A stretch of DNA of 64,000 bases, taken from an uncultured Clostridia bacterium (GTDB taxonomy: Bacteria > Bacillota > Clostridia > Oscillospirales > CAG-272). The stretch is from the NCBI GenBank assembly GCA_944381085.1, contig CALWJX010000007.1, forward strand, positions 1-64,000, written 5' to 3'. A program made the position numbers and the translations under genes. Position 1 is the first letter of the stretch, and each line of letters begins with the position of its first letter. Below the pieces are notes generated by a model. The model was given only the letters and a program-made list of their open reading frames with translations, did no database searches and was not told the DNA's origin. This document shows, piece by piece, positions 6,405 through 37,913 of this stretch.

Positions 6405-7733
6405 TCAATCAAGGAATCCTTTATAGTTACGCATTGTAAGCTGTGCTTCAAGCTCGCGTATGGTTTCAAGCGCGACGCCGGTTACGATAAGCAACGACGA
6501 ACCGCCGAAAGCAAGTTCCGCAAGTCCGTTAAAATTAAACAGCATCGCTATAGCGTTCGCGATAAGCGGTAAACCGGAAATGCAGCACAGGAAAACCGCG
6601 CCTATAAAAGTAATACGTTTCAGTATTTTCTGTATATATTCTATTGTAGGTCTTCCGGGACGAATACCGGGAATAGCTCCGCCGTTATTCCTTATATTGT
6701 TCGCCACCTCTACCGGGTTAAACGAAATCATTATATAGAAGAACGAAAACCCTACCAACAACAGAATAAAGATTACAATATAAAGAGGCTTACTGTAATT
6801 GAAAATGTTGTTTACTCCCTGCCAGAAACCACTGTTCGGGAAAAAGCTTGCTATGGTTGCGGGGATAGCGACTATTGAGTTTGCGAAAATAATCGGCATG
6901 ACTCCCGACATATTAAGCTTCATAGGCAGACTGGAGGACTGACCCCCATACATTTTACGCCCGACAACTCTCTTTGCGTACTGAACAGGTATTCTTCTTT
7001 CTGAGTTTGTAAACCAAACAACAAAGTATATAACCGCAAGTACCGCAACTATTATAAGCACTACCCAAAGAATTCCGAGAGGCTTGAAGCTGCCGTCATA
7101 GATCATGTTCCAAAGATTTGCCACATAGGTGGGAACTCTTGCTATGATGTTCGCGAAAAGAATGATGGATATACCGTTTCCGATACCGAATTCATTGATT
7201 CTTTCGGCAAGCCACATAACCATTGCTGCGCCTGCGCAATAACATGCTATCATTACAATTATCTTAAATACCGCGCCCTCGGAGCCTACCGCAAAGGTAA
7301 TCATCCTCTGACCGTTGTAACTGAAATTGTAAAGATACATCGCGTAACCGAATGATGTAATCAACGCGAGAACCACTGTAACAATTCTTGTAATGGCGGA
7401 AATTTTCTTTTTACCGCTCTCGCCCTCTTTAGCCAATGCTTCCAGTTTGGGAATGGCAATGGTAAGAAGCTGCATAACTATAGAAGCGGTAATGTACGGT
7501 GAAACCGAAAGTGCGAACAGAGTAGCTCTTCCGAATGCGTCTCCGGAAAGCAGACTCATATACTGCAATATAGTACCGCTGGTTTGCGCCTCAAAGTATG
7601 TTATTGCGTTTGAGTCTACCCACGGCACCGGAATATTCGCCCCAAGGCGGTAAAGGATAACGATAAGCAATGTGAAGAGGAGCTTTATCTTAAGCTCCGG
7701 AGTCTTCCAAGCATTTTTTAACGTCTGAAACAT
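6405..7733 (-). CDS. secY: preprotein translocase subunit SecY
   Basis: Central channel of the Sec translocon in the cytoplasmic membrane. It is 442 aa with ten predicted helices, the plug region near residues 60-75 (SLLSGDAFGRATLFALSVSPYI) and the cytoplasmic loop NSERRIPVQYAKRVVGRKMYGG. The gene sits between rplO and adk, two bases after rplO, so translation is probably coupled. secE and secG are not in the window. Confidence 0.98.
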   Translation of the reverse strand: MFQTLKNAWKTPELKIKLLFTLLIVILYRLGANIPVPWVDSNAITYFEAQTSGTILQYMSLLSGDAFGRATLFALSVSPYITASIVMQLLTIAIPKLEALAKEGESGKKKISAITRIVTVVLALITSFGYAMYLYNFSYNGQRMITFAVGSEGAVFKIIVMIACYCAGAAMVMWLAERINEFGIGNGISIILFANIIARVPTYVANLWNMIYDGSFKPLGILWVVLIIVAVLAVIYFVVWFTNSERRIPVQYAKRVVGRKMYGGQSSSLPMKLNMSGVMPIIFANSIVAIPATIASFFPNSGFWQGVNNIFNYSKPLYIVIFILLLVGFSFFYIMISFNPVEVANNIRNNGGAIPGIRPGRPTIEYIQKILKRITFIGAVFLCCISGLPLIANAIAMLFNFNGLAELAFGGSSLLIVTGVALETIRELEAQLTMRNYKGFLD

Positions 7734-7735
7734 CC

Positions 7736-8176
7736 TTATACCTCCTCTGCCTGTCCACCTGCTGCTATTATCTTTTCTTTCGCAGTTGCTGAAAAGACTA
7801 CCGCTTTAACAGTAAGTTTTTTATTGATTTCCCCAGTGCCCAGAACCTTCAGGCCATCCAAAGGCTTGCGGATAATTCTTTTTGCGAGAAGAGTATCAAT
7901 GTCAACGACTGCGCCATCCTCAAAGCTGTTGAGAACGGATACATTTACTATCGCATAATTTGTTGCAAATTTGTTGTTAAAGCCTCTTTTGGGATGCTTT
8001 CTGTAAAGAGGAAGCTGACCTCCCTCAAATCCCGGTCTTACGCCTCCGCCTGAGCGCGCGTTCTGACCCTTATGACCTTTTCCGGCGGTCTTTCCGTTTC
8101 CGGATGCGGTTCCTCTTCCTCTTCTGAAAGAAGCCTTTACCGAGCCCTCTGCCGGCTTTAGTTCGTTAAGTTTCAT
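7736..8176 (-). CDS. rplO: 50S ribosomal protein L15
   Basis: L15 is a late-assembly large-subunit protein with a long N-terminal extension that enters the rRNA core. The 146-aa sequence begins [20 protein letters not shown] and has the Gly/Arg-rich block [20 protein letters not shown] plus the [11 protein letters not shown] motif. It follows rpmD and abuts secY. Confidence 0.98.
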
Positions 8177-8193
8177 TATCTTATTACCTCCTT

Positions 8194-8373
8194 TTAGTCT
8201 TCAACGGTCTCAACCGTTACCAGATGAGAGATAATTTTTATCTTGCCTGCAAGAACGGCGTCATCCGCGTGAACTATACTGTCACCTATCTTTGTAAGGC
8301 CGAGGGATTTTGCCGTTGCTCTCTGATTCGGCTTGGATGAAATAAGACTCTTTGTAAGCGTTACTTTCTTCAT
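8194..8373 (-). CDS. rpmD: 50S ribosomal protein L30
   Basis: Read from the sequence: ATG at 8373, TAA at 8194, 59 aa, normal length for the short bacterial L30. It begins [20 protein letters not shown] and contains [21 protein letters not shown]... of the family, with the usual Lys/Leu-rich helix [20 protein letters not shown] ribosome binding site precedes it. Position between rpsE and rplO is standard. Confidence 0.95.
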
Positions 8374-8387
8374 AATCTCTTTCCTCC

Positions 8388-8891
8388 TCAGCCCTTTATC
8401 TGTTCAACGGGAATGTTGCGTATATTTGCAACCTCCTGAGCCGTGCGAAGCTCCTTAAGACCCTCCATTGTAGCCTTAACCACATTGGTAGGATTGTTGG
8501 AACGAAGGCACTTTGCCCTTACGTTGGAAATACCCGCCGCTTCGAGAACGGCTCTTACCTTTCCGCCCGCGATTATACCGGTACCGAGTGCGGCAGGCTT
8601 TATAAGCACCTTGCCGGCGCCGTATACTCCGATAACCTCGTGGGGAATGGTGGTGCCCTTAAGCGCTACGGTAATCATATTTTTCTTTGCGTCCTCTATT
8701 CCCTTGCGTATAGCTTCGGGAACCTCGGCTGCTTTGCCAAGACCTACTCCTACATGTCCGGCTCCGTCGCCGACAACCATGAGAGCCGCGAAACGCGAAA
8801 TGCGTCCGCCCTTTACAGTCTTGGAAACACGGTTCAGCGAGACGAGCTTTTCGGTGAGCTCAACCTCAGCCGGATTAAATTTCTGTGCCAT
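8388..8891 (-). CDS. rpsE: 30S ribosomal protein S5
   Basis: S5 sits at the mRNA entry channel and influences decoding accuracy. The 167-aa protein has the double-stranded RNA-binding fold at the N-terminus ([36 protein letters not shown]) and the C-terminal domain with [15 protein letters not shown]-like sequence. It lies between rplR and rpmD. Confidence 0.98.
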
Positions 8892-8969
8892 TTAATGGTT
8901 TCCTCCTGAAAATTGTTCAAATTTGGTTTGAACAGTGTACAAACCGGATCTCTTAGGATTATAAATCCG

Positions 8970-9329
8970 TCAGAACTTCAGACCGCCTTCGCGCGCGCCC
9001 TCCGCCAACTCCGATACACGTCCGTGATATAGATAGCCGCCTCTGTCAAACACGACCTCTGTAATTCCCATGGCTACCGCTTTCTCGGCAAGCTTTTTGC
9101 CCACTTCGCGAGCAGCCTCTTTATTTCCGCCGTTTCCTTCAAAACCTGCTCCGTAAGTAGAAGCGGAAACCAATGTTTTTCCTGCCGTGTCGTCAATTAT
9201 CTGTGCGGAAATATTCGCGTTTGAACGATATACTGCCAGACGCGGACAAGCAGCAGTACCTGAAATCTTTGCTCTGACTCTCTTATGTCTCTTAAGACGA
9301 GCCTTATTGCTGTCCTTTCTTGATACCAT
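8970..9329 (-). CDS. rplR: 50S ribosomal protein L18
   Basis: L18 binds 5S rRNA with L5 in the central protuberance. The 119-aa protein begins [19 protein letters not shown] and ends [20 protein letters not shown]-type sequence followed by EGGLKF, both diagnostic. It lies 18 bases after rplF. The 78-base gap to rpsE holds no evident feature. Confidence 0.98.
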
Positions 9330-9347
9330 TTTACTCCACTCCTTTCA

Positions 9348-9968
9348 TTATTTACCGGTCTTTCCGGCTTTACGGCGAACTCTTTCGTCGATATAACGGA
9401 TTCCCTTGCCGTGATAGGGCTCCGGCGGGCGTTTTCCTCTGATGACTGCCGCCATCTGACCTACCGCCTGCTTGTCGGCGCCGCTTACCACTATGATAAG
9501 TCCGCTGCTGACCTTCTCGGTCGTCATCTGGTCGATACCAAGTTTCTTTATCTCGTCCTCGTTGGGAACCGAAAGCTTAACCGTATCGGTATCGCTCATA
9601 ATGTACTTTTCCTGAGGAAGAGCATTGGTGGGGACAAGAGAGTAGCCCAAATAAAGCTGCAGGTCTTTTCCTACCTTGACAGCCTTATAGCCGACGCCGT
9701 ATATCATGAGAACCTTCTTAAATCCTACATGAACGCCCGTTACCATATTCTGAACCAAGGCGCGTGTCAGTCCGTGCAGGCTCTTATCCTCTTTTTCATC
9801 GGAAGGACGCGTTATTACAACCTTGTTATCCTCAACGCTTATAGTCATTCTGGGGCTAAAGGTTTCAGTGAGCGTTCCTACCGGTCCCTTCGCGGTAACC
9901 TTGTTACCTTCAACAGTTACTGTTACGCCTGCGGGTATTTCGACAGGCATTCTACCGATTCTTGACAT
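9348..9968 (-). CDS. rplF: 50S ribosomal protein L6 with an internal insertion
   Basis: L6 supports the GTPase-associated region of the large subunit. The start was set at ATG 9968 (MSRIGRMPVEIPAGV), since the longer reading adds 13 residues unlike L6. At 206 aa it is about 25 longer than the usual 178-182. The extra residues lie in the second domain between LYLGYS (about residue 107) and GADKQAVGQMAA (about residue 160), where relatives run GYSHPV...PEGI without the TNALPQEKYIMSDTDTV segment. The C-terminal RPPEPYHGKGIRY is intact. Confidence 0.96.
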   Translation of the reverse strand: MSRIGRMPVEIPAGVTVTVEGNKVTAKGPVGTLTETFSPRMTISVEDNKVVITRPSDEKEDKSLHGLTRALVQNMVTGVHVGFKKVLMIYGVGYKAVKVGKDLQLYLGYSLVPTNALPQEKYIMSDTDTVKLSVPNEDEIKKLGIDQMTTEKVSSGLIIVVSGADKQAVGQMAAVIRGKRPPEPYHGKGIRYIDERVRRKAGKTGK

Positions 9969-9990
9969 ATCAAGTATACCTCCCGTCCTA

Positions 9991-10386
9991 TTACCATACA
10001 AACACAAGCACTTCGCCGCCGACTTTAAGCGCGCGTGCTTTCTTGTCTGTCATTATTCCTTTGGACGTGGACACAATAGCGATTCCAAGTCCGTTCATAA
10101 CCTTAGGCATGTTCTCATATCCGGCATATATACGCAGACCGGGCTTTGACACACGCTTAAGACCTCTTATTACCTTCTGTTTGCCGACATACTTAAGGGT
10201 CACTCTGAGTATTCCCTGCTTTCCGTCGTCAATTACTTCATAGCTTTTGATATAACCCTCTTCAACAAGGATCTTAGCTATTGCTTCTTTCATGTTCGAT
10301 GCCGGAATGTCAACTGTCGCGTGCTTTACATTGCTTGCGTTTCTTATTCTTGTGAGCATATCGGCAATAACATCGGATATCTGCAT
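9991..10386 (-). CDS. rpsH: 30S ribosomal protein S8
   Basis: S8 binds helix 21 of 16S rRNA and is a regulator of the spc operon in other bacteria. The start is ATG 10386 ([17 protein letters not shown]), preceded by AGGAGG; the upstream in-frame extension is not S8. The product is 131 aa with the C-terminal signature [18 protein letters not shown] and final EVLVFVW. A 150-base gap to rpsN holds no recognisable feature. Confidence 0.97.
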
Positions 10387-10536
10387 TTTTCTTTCCTCCT
10401 GATGCAAGTAAACTTTCTTGCTGCCACAAATTCTGGCCGCATACCGGCGGTTAAGTCCAACGCAAAGGATGATGCGATTAACTTCCTTCCGGTAGTTAGG
10501 GGTTTTCAAACCAACACTTAAATTTCGATAAGGATA

Positions 10537-10722
10537 TTACCAGCTTGACTTTTTGACGCCGGGAATCTCGCCCTTATACGCAAGATTTCTGAAGCAGATT
10601 CTGCAAATTCCGTACTTACGCATATAAGCGTGGGGACGTCCGCAGATTTTGCATCTGTTGTATTCTCTTGTGGAATACTTCTGGGGCTTCTGCTGCTTGA
10701 GTATCATTGACTTTTTAGCCAT
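10537..10722 (-). CDS. rpsN: 30S ribosomal protein S14 type Z
   Basis: S14 is in the 30S head. The 61-aa short form has zinc ligands Cys24, Cys27, Cys40 and Cys43 (CKIC and CRIC), the type Z, zinc-dependent paralogue that is in the spc operon of Firmicutes. It ends with IPGVKKSSW as expected. It follows rplE. Confidence 0.97.
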
Positions 10723-10737
10723 TATCTTTACCTCCGA

Positions 10738-11277
10738 TTATCTCGCAAAGGGAGCGCCCATGAGTGAAAGCAGCTCTCTTGCCTCGTCATCCGTCTGTGC
10801 CGTTGTGACAAAACAGATGTCCATTCCGCGGATTTTATCCACCTTATCGTACTCAATCTCGGGGAATATAAGCTGTTCCTTAAGACCGAGAGAATAATTT
10901 CCGCGTCCGTCGAAAGCATTGGGATTGATACCCTTGAAGTCACGGACTCTGGGAAGCGCGAAATTGAAAAGTCTGTCCATAAACTCATACATCTTCTCGC
11001 CGCGAAGTGTAACCTTTGCGCCTATCTTCATGCCCTCGCGGAGCTTGAAGTTTGCGACCGATTTCTTTGCGTACGTGGGGACAGCCTTCTGTCCGGAGAT
11101 AATTGTAAGGTCATTTATTATTGAATCGATAACCTTTGAATTTTCCTTCGCGTCGCCGGCTCCGATGTTGATAACTATCTTGTCAAACTTCGGAATCTGC
11201 ATTACGCTTTTATAGGAATACTTTTTCATGAGGGCGGGAGCTGCCTCTGAAACATATAAATCTTTAAGTCTTGACAT
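10738..11277 (-). CDS. rplE: 50S ribosomal protein L5
   Basis: L5 binds 5S rRNA and contacts the P-site tRNA. The 179-aa protein begins [20 protein letters not shown] and has the conserved [35 protein letters not shown] and [17 protein letters not shown] segments. Between rplX and rpsN, as usual. Confidence 0.98.
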
Positions 11278-30939: not shown

Positions 30940-31413
30940 ATGTTGAATAACCTTACATTAAAAAAAGATATCCGCACTTTTTCGGTCAGCCCCGAAAATC
31001 CGACCGGCAAAAAGGGCGAAGGAGGAAAAGCGACTCTTGAGACCGGAAGCGCGGCAAACGCCGCCCGAGAACTCGGTCAAGGCTGGAAAGTGAACCCATA
31101 CATATAGTGGACGGGGGCAAGACGGCAGTGCTTGCCGACGTCAGCGGAGAGGGCGCGATAAAGCATTTTTGGATAACCGACAGCGCAAATTACGGAAGAC
31201 AGTTGATATTGCGCATTTACTTCGACGGGCAACAAAATCCCTCCGTTCTCTCTCCCCTGTCCGACTTTTTTGCCAATGCGGATTATAATGAATACCGACA
31301 GATCAACAGTCTTGCGGTATGCTATAATCCCCGCAAAGGTATGAATTTATATTTTGAAATGCCCTACTTCAGAAATTTCCGCGTTGAAATCGAAATTGAT
31401 TTAAAAGAAGTTA
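30940..31413 (+). pseudogene. broken GH172 (DUF2961) glycoside hydrolase gene
   Basis: ATG 30940 after AAGGAGAT opens MLNNLTLKKDIRTFSVSPENP through ARELGQGWKVNPYI, a start typical of DUF2961/GH172 enzymes, then meets TAG at 31105. One base over, the frame continues VDGGKTAVLADVSGEGAIKHFWITD, LRIYFDGQQNPSVLSPLSDFFAN and MPYFRNFRVEIEIDL, all family hallmarks. A single-base loss therefore split the gene. Homology stops near 31413, about 160 of the usual 350-370 residues, where unrelated sequence and an IS-like hairpin follow. GH172 enzymes act on fructofuranosides or arabinofuranosides. Shown as forward in two frames; surely non-functional. Confidence 0.82.
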
Positions 31414-31439
31414 TCCAATATTTTTTGTTTTTATATTCT

Positions 31440-31514
31440 GCACGTAGAATGAACGACATACTCCCCCACCGTAACAGGTGGGGCTCAAGTGAAATTATGC
31501 TACGCGTCATCGGA
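31440..31514. mobile_element. probable end scar of an IS200/IS605-like element
   Basis: CCCCACC-gtaaca-GGTGGGG (31464-31470 with 31477-31483) is a subterminal hairpin like those at IS200/IS605 ends. It lies exactly between the truncated GH172 gene and the ABC-transporter tail remnant. No transposase gene remains. The assignment to a family is inference. Confidence 0.4.
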
Positions 31515-31548
31515 TAATATTCAGGCAAGCAAATTATTGATAGATTAA
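31515..31548 (+). pseudogene. 3' tail of a lost ABC transporter gene
   Basis: TAATATTCAGGCAAGCAAAT (31515-31534) is identical to 33361-33380, the last codons of the intact ABC transporter. In frame it reads NIQASKLLID and stops, against NIQASKYYG in the intact gene. So a second, tandem copy once stood upstream, and all but its tail was deleted. Confidence 0.8.
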
Positions 31549-33553: not shown

Positions 33554-33730
33554 TATGTTCCCTTCCCAAAGCGGATTAATTTCGCAAATACTTAGAGACA
33601 ATAAAGCACATCGCTGAATATAATGTCTATGAGGGCTTCCTCATACGGAGCTCTCATTTAAGAGAATAGCGAAATGGCATTAGTGTGCCGTTCATTGTAT
33701 AATTCTGACACGTTACAGGGAGATAAGGAT

Positions 33731-34060
33731 ATGAATGATAAATATGAATTGACAGACCAATGCGCGGACCAGGTAGGTTGTCCCGTGGTAGGATATCAGG
33801 ATGTTAATGTATGCGTTCCGATTACCATAAAGGTATTCGGAGAAGTAGGCAACGCCGAAACACAGTGTCTTGGAAAAAGTGTTGTCTCTTCGGGATGTGA
33901 AGTCTGCTCGGGAAAACCCGGAGACGTATGCAAATTCACAATCAGTCAGAAACTTCGCGTTGAAGTGCCGGTTATATTCGGAGCCAGAGCCGAAGCCGGA
34001 GAAGCTTTTGTGGATTGCGAATGTGGCGGAAACGCAAACGGCTGTGATTCGCTCAACTGA
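33731..34060 (+). CDS. small cysteine-rich protein, conserved hypothetical
   Basis: 109 aa from ATG 33731, with GGGAGATAAGGAT before it; a longer in-frame reading has no ribosome binding site. It has ten cysteines and no signal peptide or membrane helix. Segments such as CPVVGYQDVNVCVPITIKVFG, CKFTISQKLRVEVPVIFGA and FVDCECGGNANGC recall a type of small hypothetical protein I have seen in clostridial spore- or surface-related contexts, but I cannot name a family. The Cys pairs may bind metal or form disulfides on the cell or spore surface. Single-gene unit with a strong terminator. Confidence 0.6.
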   Translation: MNDKYELTDQCADQVGCPVVGYQDVNVCVPITIKVFGEVGNAETQCLGKSVVSSGCEVCSGKPGDVCKFTISQKLRVEVPVIFGARAEAGEAFVDCECGGNANGCDSLN

Positions 34061-34192: not shown

Positions 34193-34633
34193 TCAGTATT
34201 CAAATTCAAATCCGGCTTTGTCGCTCACAAATTCACACAATTTCTCATTCTTAAATGAAAAACTATAACTTGCTTTACAGGACGCGCTTTCATGAATTGT
34301 ACGACACATATCTCCGTTTGTCGGAGCCAGAAGAGGATGCGCGTTTTTTTCAGTCAACTCGGCTGTAAGCTCATAATCTCCCTGCCCGACCGTCACCGAA
34401 TTTTTCCCTATTTCTTTTACCTTTGCCCCGAGATAAGTGGCTATACGGTATTCCCTGCCGTTCAGCAAAACCACTCCGATAATACCGGTGAAATGAAACC
34501 CAAGCATGGGAATATCCGCGACCGAAAGCATCAAGGAGTTATTTTCAAAGCGCAACCGTAATCGGTCATATGAAAAAGCATCAATTACATTTTTATAATC
34601 ACATGACCATTTTCTATATACAATAAAAGACAT
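34193..34633 (-). CDS. fragment resembling the C-terminal half of a tocopherol cyclase-like protein
   Basis: The 146-aa reading frame contains LMLSVADIPMLGFHFTGIIG, the strand VLLNGREYRIATYLGAKV and a C-terminal block LLAPTNGDMCRTIHESASCKASYSF. This resembles the tocopherol cyclase-like family of Firmicutes, whose members are over twice as long, so only the C-terminal half would be present. The gene overlaps the end of the MutS-like gene at 34585-34633 by 49 bases and no clear ribosome binding site precedes ATG 34633. It may be a degenerate or rearranged copy. Family call is moderate. Confidence 0.45.
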   Translation of the reverse strand: MSFIVYRKWSCDYKNVIDAFSYDRLRLRFENNSLMLSVADIPMLGFHFTGIIGVVLLNGREYRIATYLGAKVKEIGKNSVTVGQGDYELTAELTEKNAHPLLAPTNGDMCRTIHESASCKASYSFSFKNEKLCEFVSDKAGFEFEY

Positions 34634-36099
34634 TTATCCTTGTCCGACATTTTCTCAAGCTCTCTCAGATGCGTCACCAAAACACAACGAATATTACAAT
34701 CCGAAAAATATTCAAGTATATTATACAGACCCTGCGCGCCTTCTTCGTATGCCGTGCTCTGAAAAGTTTCATTCAGAAGCAGAAACGCCCCATCGCTCAG
34801 TTCATCCGCCAAAGCCGCAAGCTCACGTGTCTCCTGCTCAAAACGCCCTGCCTCGTTGCCACCGCAAAATTCTTTTTCCGCTTCGGAAAACTGTGACGCT
34901 ATCTGAGAATATAAGCATATTTTCGCGCATTCGCACGGAACAGGAAGCCCAGCCTGCCCCAAAATCTGCATTGTGCCCACAGAGCGCAAAAATGAAGTTT
35001 TTCCGCTTCCGTTATCGCCATACACTATAACCGAGTTATAGCTGTCCGACAAACAGAAATCGTTCGGAATAATTTTTCCGGGGTTATCGGTTGACATCAG
35101 AAGATACAGGTCATAAAGTGATTTAACCTTAACATTCCTGTCGGCTGTTATCTCCGGGAAACAATACGGAATATTTTTTTGAACAAGCGCTTCAATATAT
35201 TTCAACGCAACAAAATAAAACTCAAGCTCACGGTATACAGCGGAAAATTTATCAAAAATCTGCTCCGACAAAGAGGCGAACAAACCTGAAATATCAGAAA
35301 GAGCCGTAATCAAAAGACCTTCGTAAAAATCATTTTTACCGGGAAAAACACGTTCACAGCGATAATTAACCTCACTTTTTTTGAAAAACGGAAGTCCTTT
35401 TTTCTTAAGCTCTGGATCGGATACATAAATGTATCCGTGATCTATCAAAGCGTACTCTTCAATATGACCGTGTTCATTCAGACTGAATTTAAAGTCAAGA
35501 AAATCGTTGACGCTGAACTGTTCATACCTTCCGCAAAATCCAAGCAGATTCTGAAACTCCGGATTTTCACAGATCTCACGGCAAGCGGAGCTGAAGTTAA
35601 TAAGTCCGGCAGAGCGGAGATTGCAGACAGATAACAGCTCCCCGAATTTCTTTACAAAAAGCAGCGCTCTTTTCAGACAGACGGCCTGTGCCTGCAGAAT
35701 ATTTTTTGACGCAAACGCCGTATCGGCTTTGTTTGCGTTCAGGAGGTACTCGTTTTTCCTCAATGCTTTCTGAGACAAACGCAATTCCTCAAAACGCTCA
35801 TACAGAGCCGCCAGCCGTTCAAACGATCCCGGATTTTTCTGAAAATCCCGAATAATATCCTGTCGGTATTCAATCTCATTTTTATCACAAGTCAGCTCGG
35901 AAATTACCGAAAGAAAGCTCTCGCGCTTTTTTACATCAGCGCATACATACGAAAACGAACGATCAACAGACAGATGATACAGAACTTTTCTGTCAATTGA
36001 ATTTACATTCCCGCCCATATCAATATAATTCCCGTCAGGCGCGTCTTTATTAGTTAACTTTGTGCCGGTCACTTTTAAACTGAGCAGACTTATTTTCAC
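34585..36099 (-). CDS. MutS-like ATPase, second of a tandem pair
   Basis: 504 aa from GTG 36099, which follows AAAGGAGGAAG; ATG 36135 is upstream but has no such site. The C-terminal 160 residues are the MutS ATPase domain: Walker A GDNGSGKTS (361-369), the SQIASQFSEAEKEF and RFEQETRELAAL segments that correspond to the ST-motif and helices of MutS, and LLLNETFQSTAYEEG (440-454) where MutS has DE-x-GRGT; the Walker B Asp is Asn. The first 320 residues form the helical core/lever, without mismatch-binding or connector domains. It overlaps the upstream MutS-like gene by 50 bases. Related MutS paralogues are unassigned; function unknown. Confidence 0.75.
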   Translation of the reverse strand: MKISLLSLKVTGTKLTNKDAPDGNYIDMGGNVNSIDRKVLYHLSVDRSFSYVCADVKKRESFLSVISELTCDKNEIEYRQDIIRDFQKNPGSFERLAALYERFEELRLSQKALRKNEYLLNANKADTAFASKNILQAQAVCLKRALLFVKKFGELLSVCNLRSAGLINFSSACREICENPEFQNLLGFCGRYEQFSVNDFLDFKFSLNEHGHIEEYALIDHGYIYVSDPELKKKGLPFFKKSEVNYRCERVFPGKNDFYEGLLITALSDISGLFASLSEQIFDKFSAVYRELEFYFVALKYIEALVQKNIPYCFPEITADRNVKVKSLYDLYLLMSTDNPGKIIPNDFCLSDSYNSVIVYGDNGSGKTSFLRSVGTMQILGQAGLPVPCECAKICLYSQIASQFSEAEKEFCGGNEAGRFEQETRELAALADELSDGAFLLLNETFQSTAYEEGAQGLYNILEYFSDCNIRCVLVTHLRELEKMSDKDKCLLLYIENGHVIIKM

Positions 36100-37540
36100 G
36101 GTTCTTCCTCCTTTCAGTGAGAGAATCCTTATCAAGTCGGTATTTTCTCAGAATATCGTATGCATATGAAGCTACAGCACTTTTCGACCTTACAATTTTG
36201 AAAGTCCTTCGGTTTCCGTCCTCCGGACAAACTTCGGAAATCAAAACCGGAAAATCCAGATTAATGACTTCATGAAAATGCGTGACATACAGACAAAAAT
36301 GCCCCGCCGCCCTGATATTTTCCGAAATATTTTTGACAAGCTCAAAACCTCTGCGCTCATCGGTCCCGCTGAAAGTTTCGTTGAAAAGCAAAAATGCCGT
36401 TTTGTTTTCCGAAGCGGAAAGCATTCCAAACGAACGCCGCAGTTCCTCGTCAAGTCTTCCCACGCCGTCAAACCGTTCATCCTTCGGAAAATGTGAAGCC
36501 GCAAAATCAAACCTATATATGCTCGCCCGTTTCGCAAAAACGGGACATCCGGCAAGAAACAAAACAAGATTTATGCCGACCGCGCGCAGATATGTGGTCT
36601 TTCCTCCGCCGTTTGCCCCGGTCAGGAAGAAAAAACGATTTGTTTCGGTGAAATCAACGTCATTAGGTATAATCCGCTCACATTCTTTCGCCATAAGCGA
36701 AATATCGTATACATCCGCAGCAAAATATCCCGGAACCGGCGATATCTCGGCTATGCAGTGAGGCACGCCGATTTTTTCCGCCTTCCGTGTAAGCTCATAA
36801 ATTTCCAAAATAAATCTTATCTGCGGAATATACCCTGTCGGCTCATTAAAATCAACCGAGGCATATTTCCGAAATATACTCCCGATTTCCCCGATCTCGG
36901 CAAAATACAGCCGGCATACGGCGTCCGAAAAAGTAATATCGGGCTTTGTGTCCGATTTTTTTCTGACCGGAACGGTAAAGCCAAGCTTTTGCGCGACGGA
37001 CGCGATTTTATCAGACTCTATTACAGCCCCGCGATCGGGAGTAATCCAGTTCTTAGAAGAGAATGACAAAAGTCCCGAATTTATCTTGCCCAACAGTTCA
37101 CTTATCCTGCCCAAGTCGGTTTTTATTTCGGAAAAAAATCGCCGCCGCTCGTCCGATAAAAAATATTCCGATACCTCGGACAACGACTGTCCGCAATCTT
37201 CAAAAGCAGACAGAGATTCACACACATTTACATAATCCGATAATACATCCGAATAAAGGTAATAACTGTTGAGCGGAACTTTTTCACTGTGCCACAGCAT
37301 TAACGACCGCTCCAGCTTCAACAAATTCGACAGACAAATTTTCAATCTGCCGAGCACTTTTTCGTCTTCAACCAAACCGAACAATTCCTGACGGCGCAAA
37401 ATCTCATCCCCGCCGCACGGCTTTTGCAAAAAGCACAACGCCTGAGGACTCAATATTCCGTCAAGCCGAATATCGGAAAGCAATTGAGGCGGCAGCACTG
37501 TCTCACCGCCGCAATACAACAATTGAGGAGCTGTTAACAT
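36050..37540 (-). CDS. MutS-like ATPase, first of a tandem pair
   Basis: 496 aa from ATG 37540 with GGAG eight bases upstream. It has the MutS-type core (about residues 1-280) and ATPase domain with Walker A GANGGGKTTYL (308-318), FDGVGRLDEELRRS (357-370) and FLLFNETFSGTDERRGF (383-399), again Asn where Walker B has Asp. VTHFHEVINL near 420 is the H-loop. No Phe-x-Glu mismatch-binding domain is present. The two genes, 20-25% identical by eye in the ATPase region, probably form a heterodimer (inference). Their downstream reading frames overlap. Confidence 0.8.
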   Translation of the reverse strand: MLTAPQLLYCGGETVLPPQLLSDIRLDGILSPQALCFLQKPCGGDEILRRQELFGLVEDEKVLGRLKICLSNLLKLERSLMLWHSEKVPLNSYYLYSDVLSDYVNVCESLSAFEDCGQSLSEVSEYFLSDERRRFFSEIKTDLGRISELLGKINSGLLSFSSKNWITPDRGAVIESDKIASVAQKLGFTVPVRKKSDTKPDITFSDAVCRLYFAEIGEIGSIFRKYASVDFNEPTGYIPQIRFILEIYELTRKAEKIGVPHCIAEISPVPGYFAADVYDISLMAKECERIIPNDVDFTETNRFFFLTGANGGGKTTYLRAVGINLVLFLAGCPVFAKRASIYRFDFAASHFPKDERFDGVGRLDEELRRSFGMLSASENKTAFLLFNETFSGTDERRGFELVKNISENIRAAGHFCLYVTHFHEVINLDFPVLISEVCPEDGNRRTFKIVRSKSAVASYAYDILRKYRLDKDSLTERRKNRENKSAQFKSDRHKVN

Positions 37541-37706: not shown

Positions 37707-37913
37707 TTATTTATACGGTTCCCTCTGATCCGTCAGCCCGAGCAGATAATCAGTAGAGGTATGATAATATTTTGCCAAGGCTATCAACACGTCTATAGGT
37801 AGCTGCCTTTGCCCGTTTTCATACTGTGAATACGTGTTTTGCCTGATGTGCAGATACTCCGCGATTTCCCGCTGAGTAAGATCACTGTCTTCTCTTAAAT
37901 CCCTTATTCTCAT
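37707..37913 (-). CDS. XRE-family helix-turn-helix regulator
   Basis: 68 aa from ATG 37913 (AGGTGAT upstream). The five-helix Cro/C1 fold is complete: LREDSDLTQREIAEYLHI, with recognition helix IRQNTYSQYENG, then LPIDVLIALAKYYHTSTDYLLG. It is a short, single-domain repressor of the type found in phage-like and antitoxin systems. It is divergent from the membrane protein at 38211; the dyads at 38137-38165 may be its operator. A hairpin lies before its ribosome binding site. Confidence 0.9.
   Translation of the reverse strand: MRIRDLREDSDLTQREIAEYLHIRQNTYSQYENGQRQLPIDVLIALAKYYHTSTDYLLGLTDQREPYK

Follow-up and report, generated by a model that had tools for sequence, protein, structure and literature searches.

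What do two overlapping genes for MutS-like ATPases do when both encode Asn at the position of the Walker B Asp? The question is raised by genes A and B in the window, i.e. the whole analyzed stretch of 64,000 nt of DNA from an uncultured Clostridia bacterium. A preliminary description had given the coordinates of both genes, an overlap of 50 nt, an NETF Walker B motif and an intact Walker A motif in each protein, and all of these were reproduced (Table 1). The Walker B motifs lie in the contexts LLFNETF (A) and LLLNETF (B), and the Pfam scores for MutS_V were 42.3 bits for A and 52 bits for B, compared to a cut-off of 30.2 bits. The two genes encode the subunits of a divergent pair of the MutS4A/MutS4B type, a unit of MutS core and ABC-type ATPase.

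Table 1. Features of the A/B locus in the window, and the M and sigma-70-like genes found elsewhere in the same genome.
Feature	Position	Strand	Details
Gene A (MutS4A-like, first gene)	36050..37540	-	ATG start, 496 aa, MutS core + ABC-type ATPase
Gene B (MutS4B-like, second gene)	34585..36099	-	GTG start at 36099, 504 aa
A/B overlap	36050..36099	-	exactly 50 nt
Putative ribosome-binding site of B, inside A	36107..36114	-	AAAGGAGG, read from sequence
Walker A of A	36596..36619	-	GANGGGKT
Walker B of A	36371..36382	-	NETF, Asn387 at 36380-36382
Gly361-Arg362 of A	36455..36460	-	replaces MutS STF signature-like loop
Walker A of B	34996..35019	-	GDNGSGKT
Walker B of B	34762..34773	-	NETF, Asn443 at 34771-34773
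Gly418-Arg419 of B	34843..34848	-	replaces MutS STF signature-like loop
XRE-type HTH ORF upstream of A	37728..37913	-	possible regulator, HTH_3 6.8e-17
ORF C	34193..34633	-	tocopherol-cyclase-like remnant, not part of the system
M gene, own genome contig C4	L185 7332-7940		~1.2 kb from the sigma-70-like gene
Sigma-70-like gene, own genome contig C4	L185 9151-10845		~1.2 kb from the M gene

The domain content agrees with the proposal that both genes encode a MutS core and ATPase without the mismatch-binding and connector domains. For A, the predicted absence of these two domains is supported by its length, by the AlphaFold2 model (pLDDT 89) and by a Foldseek search, in which the best matches of the model were only MutS and MSH proteins, among them 3k0s, the structure of E. 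coli D693N. When the profile of A was compared with the MutS1 of its own genome, the alignment did not extend beyond the ATPase and the final portion of the core. In the model, the clamp domain also appears to be missing, and a short beta hairpin is predicted at residues 156-168 instead. B is predicted, from its length and alignment, to have neither the mismatch-binding nor the connector domain. Without the domains by which MutS contacts DNA, the suggestion that the pair might be a DNA-structure sensor found no support in the form in which it was made. The mismatch-binding and connector domains and the Asp-Glu Walker B typical of MutS1 were thus not found, and the features of MutS2, the SMR domain and again an Asp-Glu Walker B, are absent as well; neither A nor B has room for SMR or KOW domains. 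The STF loop is missing in both proteins, and the G-R that takes its place is G-R/K across the family. Between 24 and 39 residues follow the switch His in B versus 57-75 in A, and B is without a C-terminal segment that is kept in A. This unequal C-terminal length indicates that the two subunits are not equivalent.

The conservation of these features was analyzed at 80 named loci from a scan of public genomes, the search patterns of which avoided the Walker B motif. All 80 loci are from MAGs, nearly all of which are labelled Clostridia, Clostridiales or Oscillospiraceae, and most stem from animal guts. Asn was present at the position of the Walker B Asp in all 80 A proteins, the window included, and in 73 of the 73 B proteins that have this column; the proposed conserved change of the ATPase is hence not a chance event. 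The Glu that follows is as invariant as the Asn in both proteins, and the switch His is kept in 98% of the A proteins. A was followed by B at 77 of the 80 loci, and the genes overlapped in 65 of these 77 pairs, by exactly 4 nt in 24 of them. The distance matrices of A and B were highly correlated (r = 0.93), and none of 999 permutations gave a value as high.

The origin of the pair was traced with a tree that took in MutS1, MutS2, KamC and plasmid pairs, and in which 49 rows were counted. Pair L082, both genes of which sit on long branches elsewhere, was left out of the count of first and second genes. The first genes formed one clade and the second genes another, with a single change over the 49 rows (SH-aLRT 94 and 83), and this split spans pairs from Bacillota, Pseudomonadota and Actinomycetota. 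The separate clades indicate that one old duplication made the pair. Together with the conserved pairing and the correlated distances, this single duplication makes it probable that A and B form a heterodimer, as had been suggested from the overlap.

Tandem pairs with Asn in both genes were also found on plasmids of Klebsiella, Enterobacter, Burkholderia, Caballeronia, Rhodococcus, Mycobacterium, Rubrobacter, Tsukamurella and Alicyclobacillus, and other pairs and other Asn-bearing genes are common in clostridial genomes. The comparison of gene order and Walker B motifs among homologous pairs that the preliminary description had called for thus revealed conserved pairing and universal Asn within the pairs. 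Homologues with Asp and without a partner, which it had named as evidence against the idea, do exist, but they form a separate branch, and the Asn rule inside paired genes is unbroken. Single-gene relatives with Asp, such as the C50 gene of the own genome, were inspected at three loci, L047 (3116-4726, from the window's own genome), L048 and L049, and each of these contains a gene that stands alone. In two genomes of the window's genus (L047 2078-4726, L048 9712-12186), the single-gene Asp relative adjoins a gene that was identified by eye as PHP-type phosphoesterase-like. KamC and MutS2 also have Asp in Walker B, and KamC branches with MutS2, away from the paired family. At least three changes between Asn and Asp are required, the Asp of the single-gene branch having been either retained or regained.

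Are further genes connected with the pair? At 42 of the 80 loci, including all 20 that are nearest to the window, A is directly preceded by a gene for a protein of about 190 aa, termed M, and at seven loci a sigma-70-like gene of about 550 aa lies upstream of M. The operon order in the nearest clade is (sigma-like)-M-A-B. M had no family match in Pfam. It contains a long N-terminal helix, a predicted membrane helix that was taken to be a membrane anchor. Its AlphaFold2 model (pLDDT 92) was most similar to the PD-(D/E)XK Holliday-junction resolvases Hjc and RecU, but the matches were weak (E 0.08 and worse). Asp62 and Lys75 are kept, whereas the position of the ExK Glu is occupied by A, S or C in 28/28 cases. 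Because this Glu is not kept, M is more likely to be a binding module than a nuclease.

In the window, M is not found beside A, but the same genome carries an M gene on contig C4 (Table 1). The sigma-like gene on C4 is orthologous to, and 61-67% identical with, those of L102, L103 and L132, which adjoin M-A-B in L102 and L103 and an A fragment in L132. Close M proteins (E < 1e-60) occur in only 3 of 39 relatives, and all three have A-B. We infer that the locus has been split into an M-sigma part and an A-B part in this genome. Two more distant M-like proteins are encoded on contigs C15 and C3 of the same genome. At other loci, an XRE protein adjoins A that belongs to a different family than the one in the window. 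A CpsB/CapC-type PHP gene lies directly upstream of A in L040 (10348-12461), L145 and L158, and a Methyltransf_32-type gene in L143 (6746-7978) and L160 (1757-2932).

Downstream of B, the window contains ORF C. In the same-genus genome G003, the counterpart of ORF C (L045 480-1373) encodes 297 aa with a Tocopherol_cycl match and starts 57 nt after the end of the ORF of the B fragment. About 580 bp that are present in G003 are missing from the window at ORF C, and it is this deletion that makes ORF C run into gene B. ORF C was therefore rejected as a third subunit or partner; it is the deletion remnant of a tocopherol-cyclase-like gene. Two further ORFs were noted in the vicinity. A DUF2961 ORF (31107-31517) is probably a truncated gene, since its match covers no more than the initial third of the Pfam profile, and a Cys-rich ORF of 128 aa (33674-34060) has no Pfam match and is conserved beside the locus in G003.

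The remnant next to B and the loss of M from the neighborhood could be taken to mean that A and B are themselves decaying genes without function. However, the reading frames of A and B are intact across the 80 loci, and the comparison with the gene fragments of G003 gave a dN of 0.021 and a dS of 0.110 for A, and a dN of 0.049 and a dS of 0.195 for B. The resulting dN/dS values of about 0.2-0.25 show that both genes are under constraint, and decay, already disfavored, is hardly credible. A role in defense against phages or mobile elements would be in line with the patchy spread of the pair, intact copies of the window's type being present in 6 of 39 relatives in addition to the fragments in G003. 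Yet PADLOC returned nothing but P-loop ATPase noise and no specific model, the neighbors at the 80 loci are varied and, by eye, largely housekeeping genes, and no relative was found in viral contigs. A defense system is thus very improbable.

Indications for a function came from the sister pairs. According to Rfam, the fluoride riboswitch RF01734 immediately precedes the first gene of the pair at five loci, namely L193 (M. branderi), L203 (a clostridial genome), L213 (Burkholderia), L215 (Alicyclobacillus) and L216 (Caballeronia). At L192 and L195, from Klebsiella and Enterobacter, it heads an antiporter-USP-pair operon, and in L194 it separates the pair from an antiporter gene that points the other way. 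It was not found in L214 and L217, nor, at the Rfam gathering score, at the other clostridial pairs L204-L210. In L210, an OLE RNA (6889-7501, 436 bits) was observed on the same strand right after the MutS-like pair (7682-10964), with a gene for a small membrane protein and a dxs-like gene past it. Neighbors of several sister pairs are eno (enolase), ppa (pyrophosphatase), crcB, and genes for a P-type ATPase and a universal stress protein. In E. cloacae, a fluoride operon that was tested by experiment contains similar partners but no mutS (PMC5533749).

The result was different for the window. RF01734 had no match near the pair or elsewhere in its genome, and a sequence pattern revealed no convincing site in the clade of 80 loci. 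A home-made riboswitch model also found none in these loci, although this model is weak (6 base pairs, with controls at E 1e-4 to 0.8). The set of features that indicates a fluoride response, RF01734 upstream or eno, ppa or crcB as neighbors, was not found in the window, its genome or the clade. The idea that fluoride controls the pair of the window itself was therefore rejected. The lack of a riboswitch means that fluoride links the family rather than this member, and that the connection cannot simply be carried over.

How could ATPases with such an active site operate? The water molecules around the Mg2+ are held in place by residues 693-696 in MutS of E. coli, and substitution of these residues abolishes ATPase activity (PMC3848065). 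A pair with Asn at both sites might thus be locked by its nucleotide, a scaffold or sensor that does not hydrolyze ATP and signals by ATP binding only, and the invariance of Asn in both subunits fits this possibility. However, a fixed catalytic Glu and a nearly fixed switch His would be expected only if hydrolysis matters, and we regard a locked scaffold as unlikely. The combination of Asn in both sites with these retained residues instead suggests that hydrolysis by the pair is slow or conditional and that the enzyme is not dead. The literature search found no biochemistry of any Asn-bearing member, and nothing on KamC or on Asn in Walker B in the open literature.

We tentatively favor a mechanism in which the pair is an ATP-gated switch for protein remodeling, similar to a reactivase, over a DNA sensor, and rate it as possible but short of probable. 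The preference is based on the absence of DNA-gripping domains and on the fluoride-stress neighbors of the sister pairs. Without the Asp that stabilizes the Mg-bound water, slow hydrolysis would be expected; with ATP bound, the A-B dimer would remain closed, and the client would be released upon rare or triggered hydrolysis. In the fluoride-regulated relatives, the pair might re-open or protect protein complexes with blocked Mg-phosphate chemistry. In gut clostridia, M would probably tether it to the membrane, and a sigma-like or XRE regulator of its own would probably control it. A possible precedent is the MutS-fold ATPase KamC, which we take, from its NCBIfam name (NF052383), to reactivate lysine 5,6-aminomutase. 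The position of KamC beside MutS2 and its Walker B Asp speak against the remodeling mechanism, as does the failure to find a fluoride riboswitch for the window's pair and clade, and so does the increase of homologous recombination that was reported for a MutS4 operon (PMC5742357).

That experiment is the starting point for another explanation, i.e. that the pair is a DNA-structure or recombination factor, a heterodimer similar to MSH4-MSH5 that would bind to branched DNA and stimulate recombination. In M. smegmatis, homologous recombination became more frequent with the MutS4 operon of Mycobacterium yongonense (PMC5742357), and the weak similarity of M to Hjc and RecU points in the same direction. 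However, the explanation rests on this single gain-of-function study, the model of A is without the mismatch-binding, connector and clamp domains, M does not have the catalytic Glu of PD-(D/E)XK nucleases, and the orthologues lie beside genes for enolase, pyrophosphatase and ion transporters, not beside recombination genes. A recombination factor thus seems somewhat unlikely. Because relatives in other phyla are under fluoride control, the pair probably serves a stress response rather than mismatch repair.

These results bear on an oddity that has been open since 2010, when a 'mutS' gene was noted under the control of the crcB (fluoride) RNA motif (PMC2864571). The genes under the riboswitch that were analyzed here belong to the family of pairs with Asn in Walker B, and they are not mismatch-repair MutS. 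Asn was found in every paired subunit examined, in three phyla, and annotation of such genes as DNA mismatch repair should be avoided. The oddity has become testable, the question being how the ATPase without the Asp that stabilizes the Mg-bound water acts in fluoride and what it would remodel. In gut clostridia, M and the sigma-like gene are new candidate partners. A much broader generalization, which is doubtful as a whole, would be that a site with Asn and Arg/Lys marks cross-phylum heterodimeric MutS-fold ATPases with little or altered use of Mg2+. They would be ATP-driven reactivases of metal-phosphate enzymes that fluoride induces in many bacteria, whereas those of gut clostridia would be brought to the membrane by M, controlled by the sigma-like factor and devoted to another stress.

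Comparison with known systems places the pair as follows. With MutS1 and the dimers MSH2-MSH6 and MSH4-MSH5, it shares the fold of core and ATPase and the logic of a heterodimer, but no mismatch-binding, connector or clamp domain was seen, Asn replaces Asp, and Arg replaces Ser in the trans loop. MutS2 is also an ATPase of the MutS family with a role other than mismatch repair, namely ribosome splitting (PMC10897456); it differs by its Asp, by being encoded by one gene instead of two, and by its SMR and KOW domains. KamC is a MutS-core ATPase of similar size and gave the best NCBIfam similarity for both A and B. Nevertheless, membership was rejected, because the scores for NF052383 (60.6 and 54.9 bits) are far below the cut-off of 300 and the branch is wrong; KamC in addition has an STF/SRF loop. 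The 'mutS' genes of the fluoride riboswitch (crcB motif, RF01734) belong to the same family of Asn-bearing pairs, in contrast to which the window's genome and clade have no riboswitch.

The closest counterpart is MutS4A/MutS4B. Adjacent and overlapping genes of this type have already been published (PMC5742357, which cites Lin 2007). Like them, the window's pair consists of two adjacent MutS_V proteins of about 500 aa, the stop of A overlapping the start of B, and its first gene falls with the A genes and its second with the B genes when the plasmid pair of Mycobacterium branderi, which also has Asn in both genes, is used as a proxy for MutS4. The proposal of an undescribed system thus does not hold for the pairs as such, these and the crcB-motif 'mutS' having been published. 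It may hold for what was not found in the literature consulted: the universal Asn, the G-R/K loops, the association with M and a sigma-like gene, and the gut-clostridial branch that has no riboswitch. Compared with MutS4A/MutS4B, the window's pair is about 25-30% identical, has Arg instead of Lys in the signature-like loop and a B protein without the C-terminal segment, and instead of a riboswitch its type is associated with M and a sigma-like gene.
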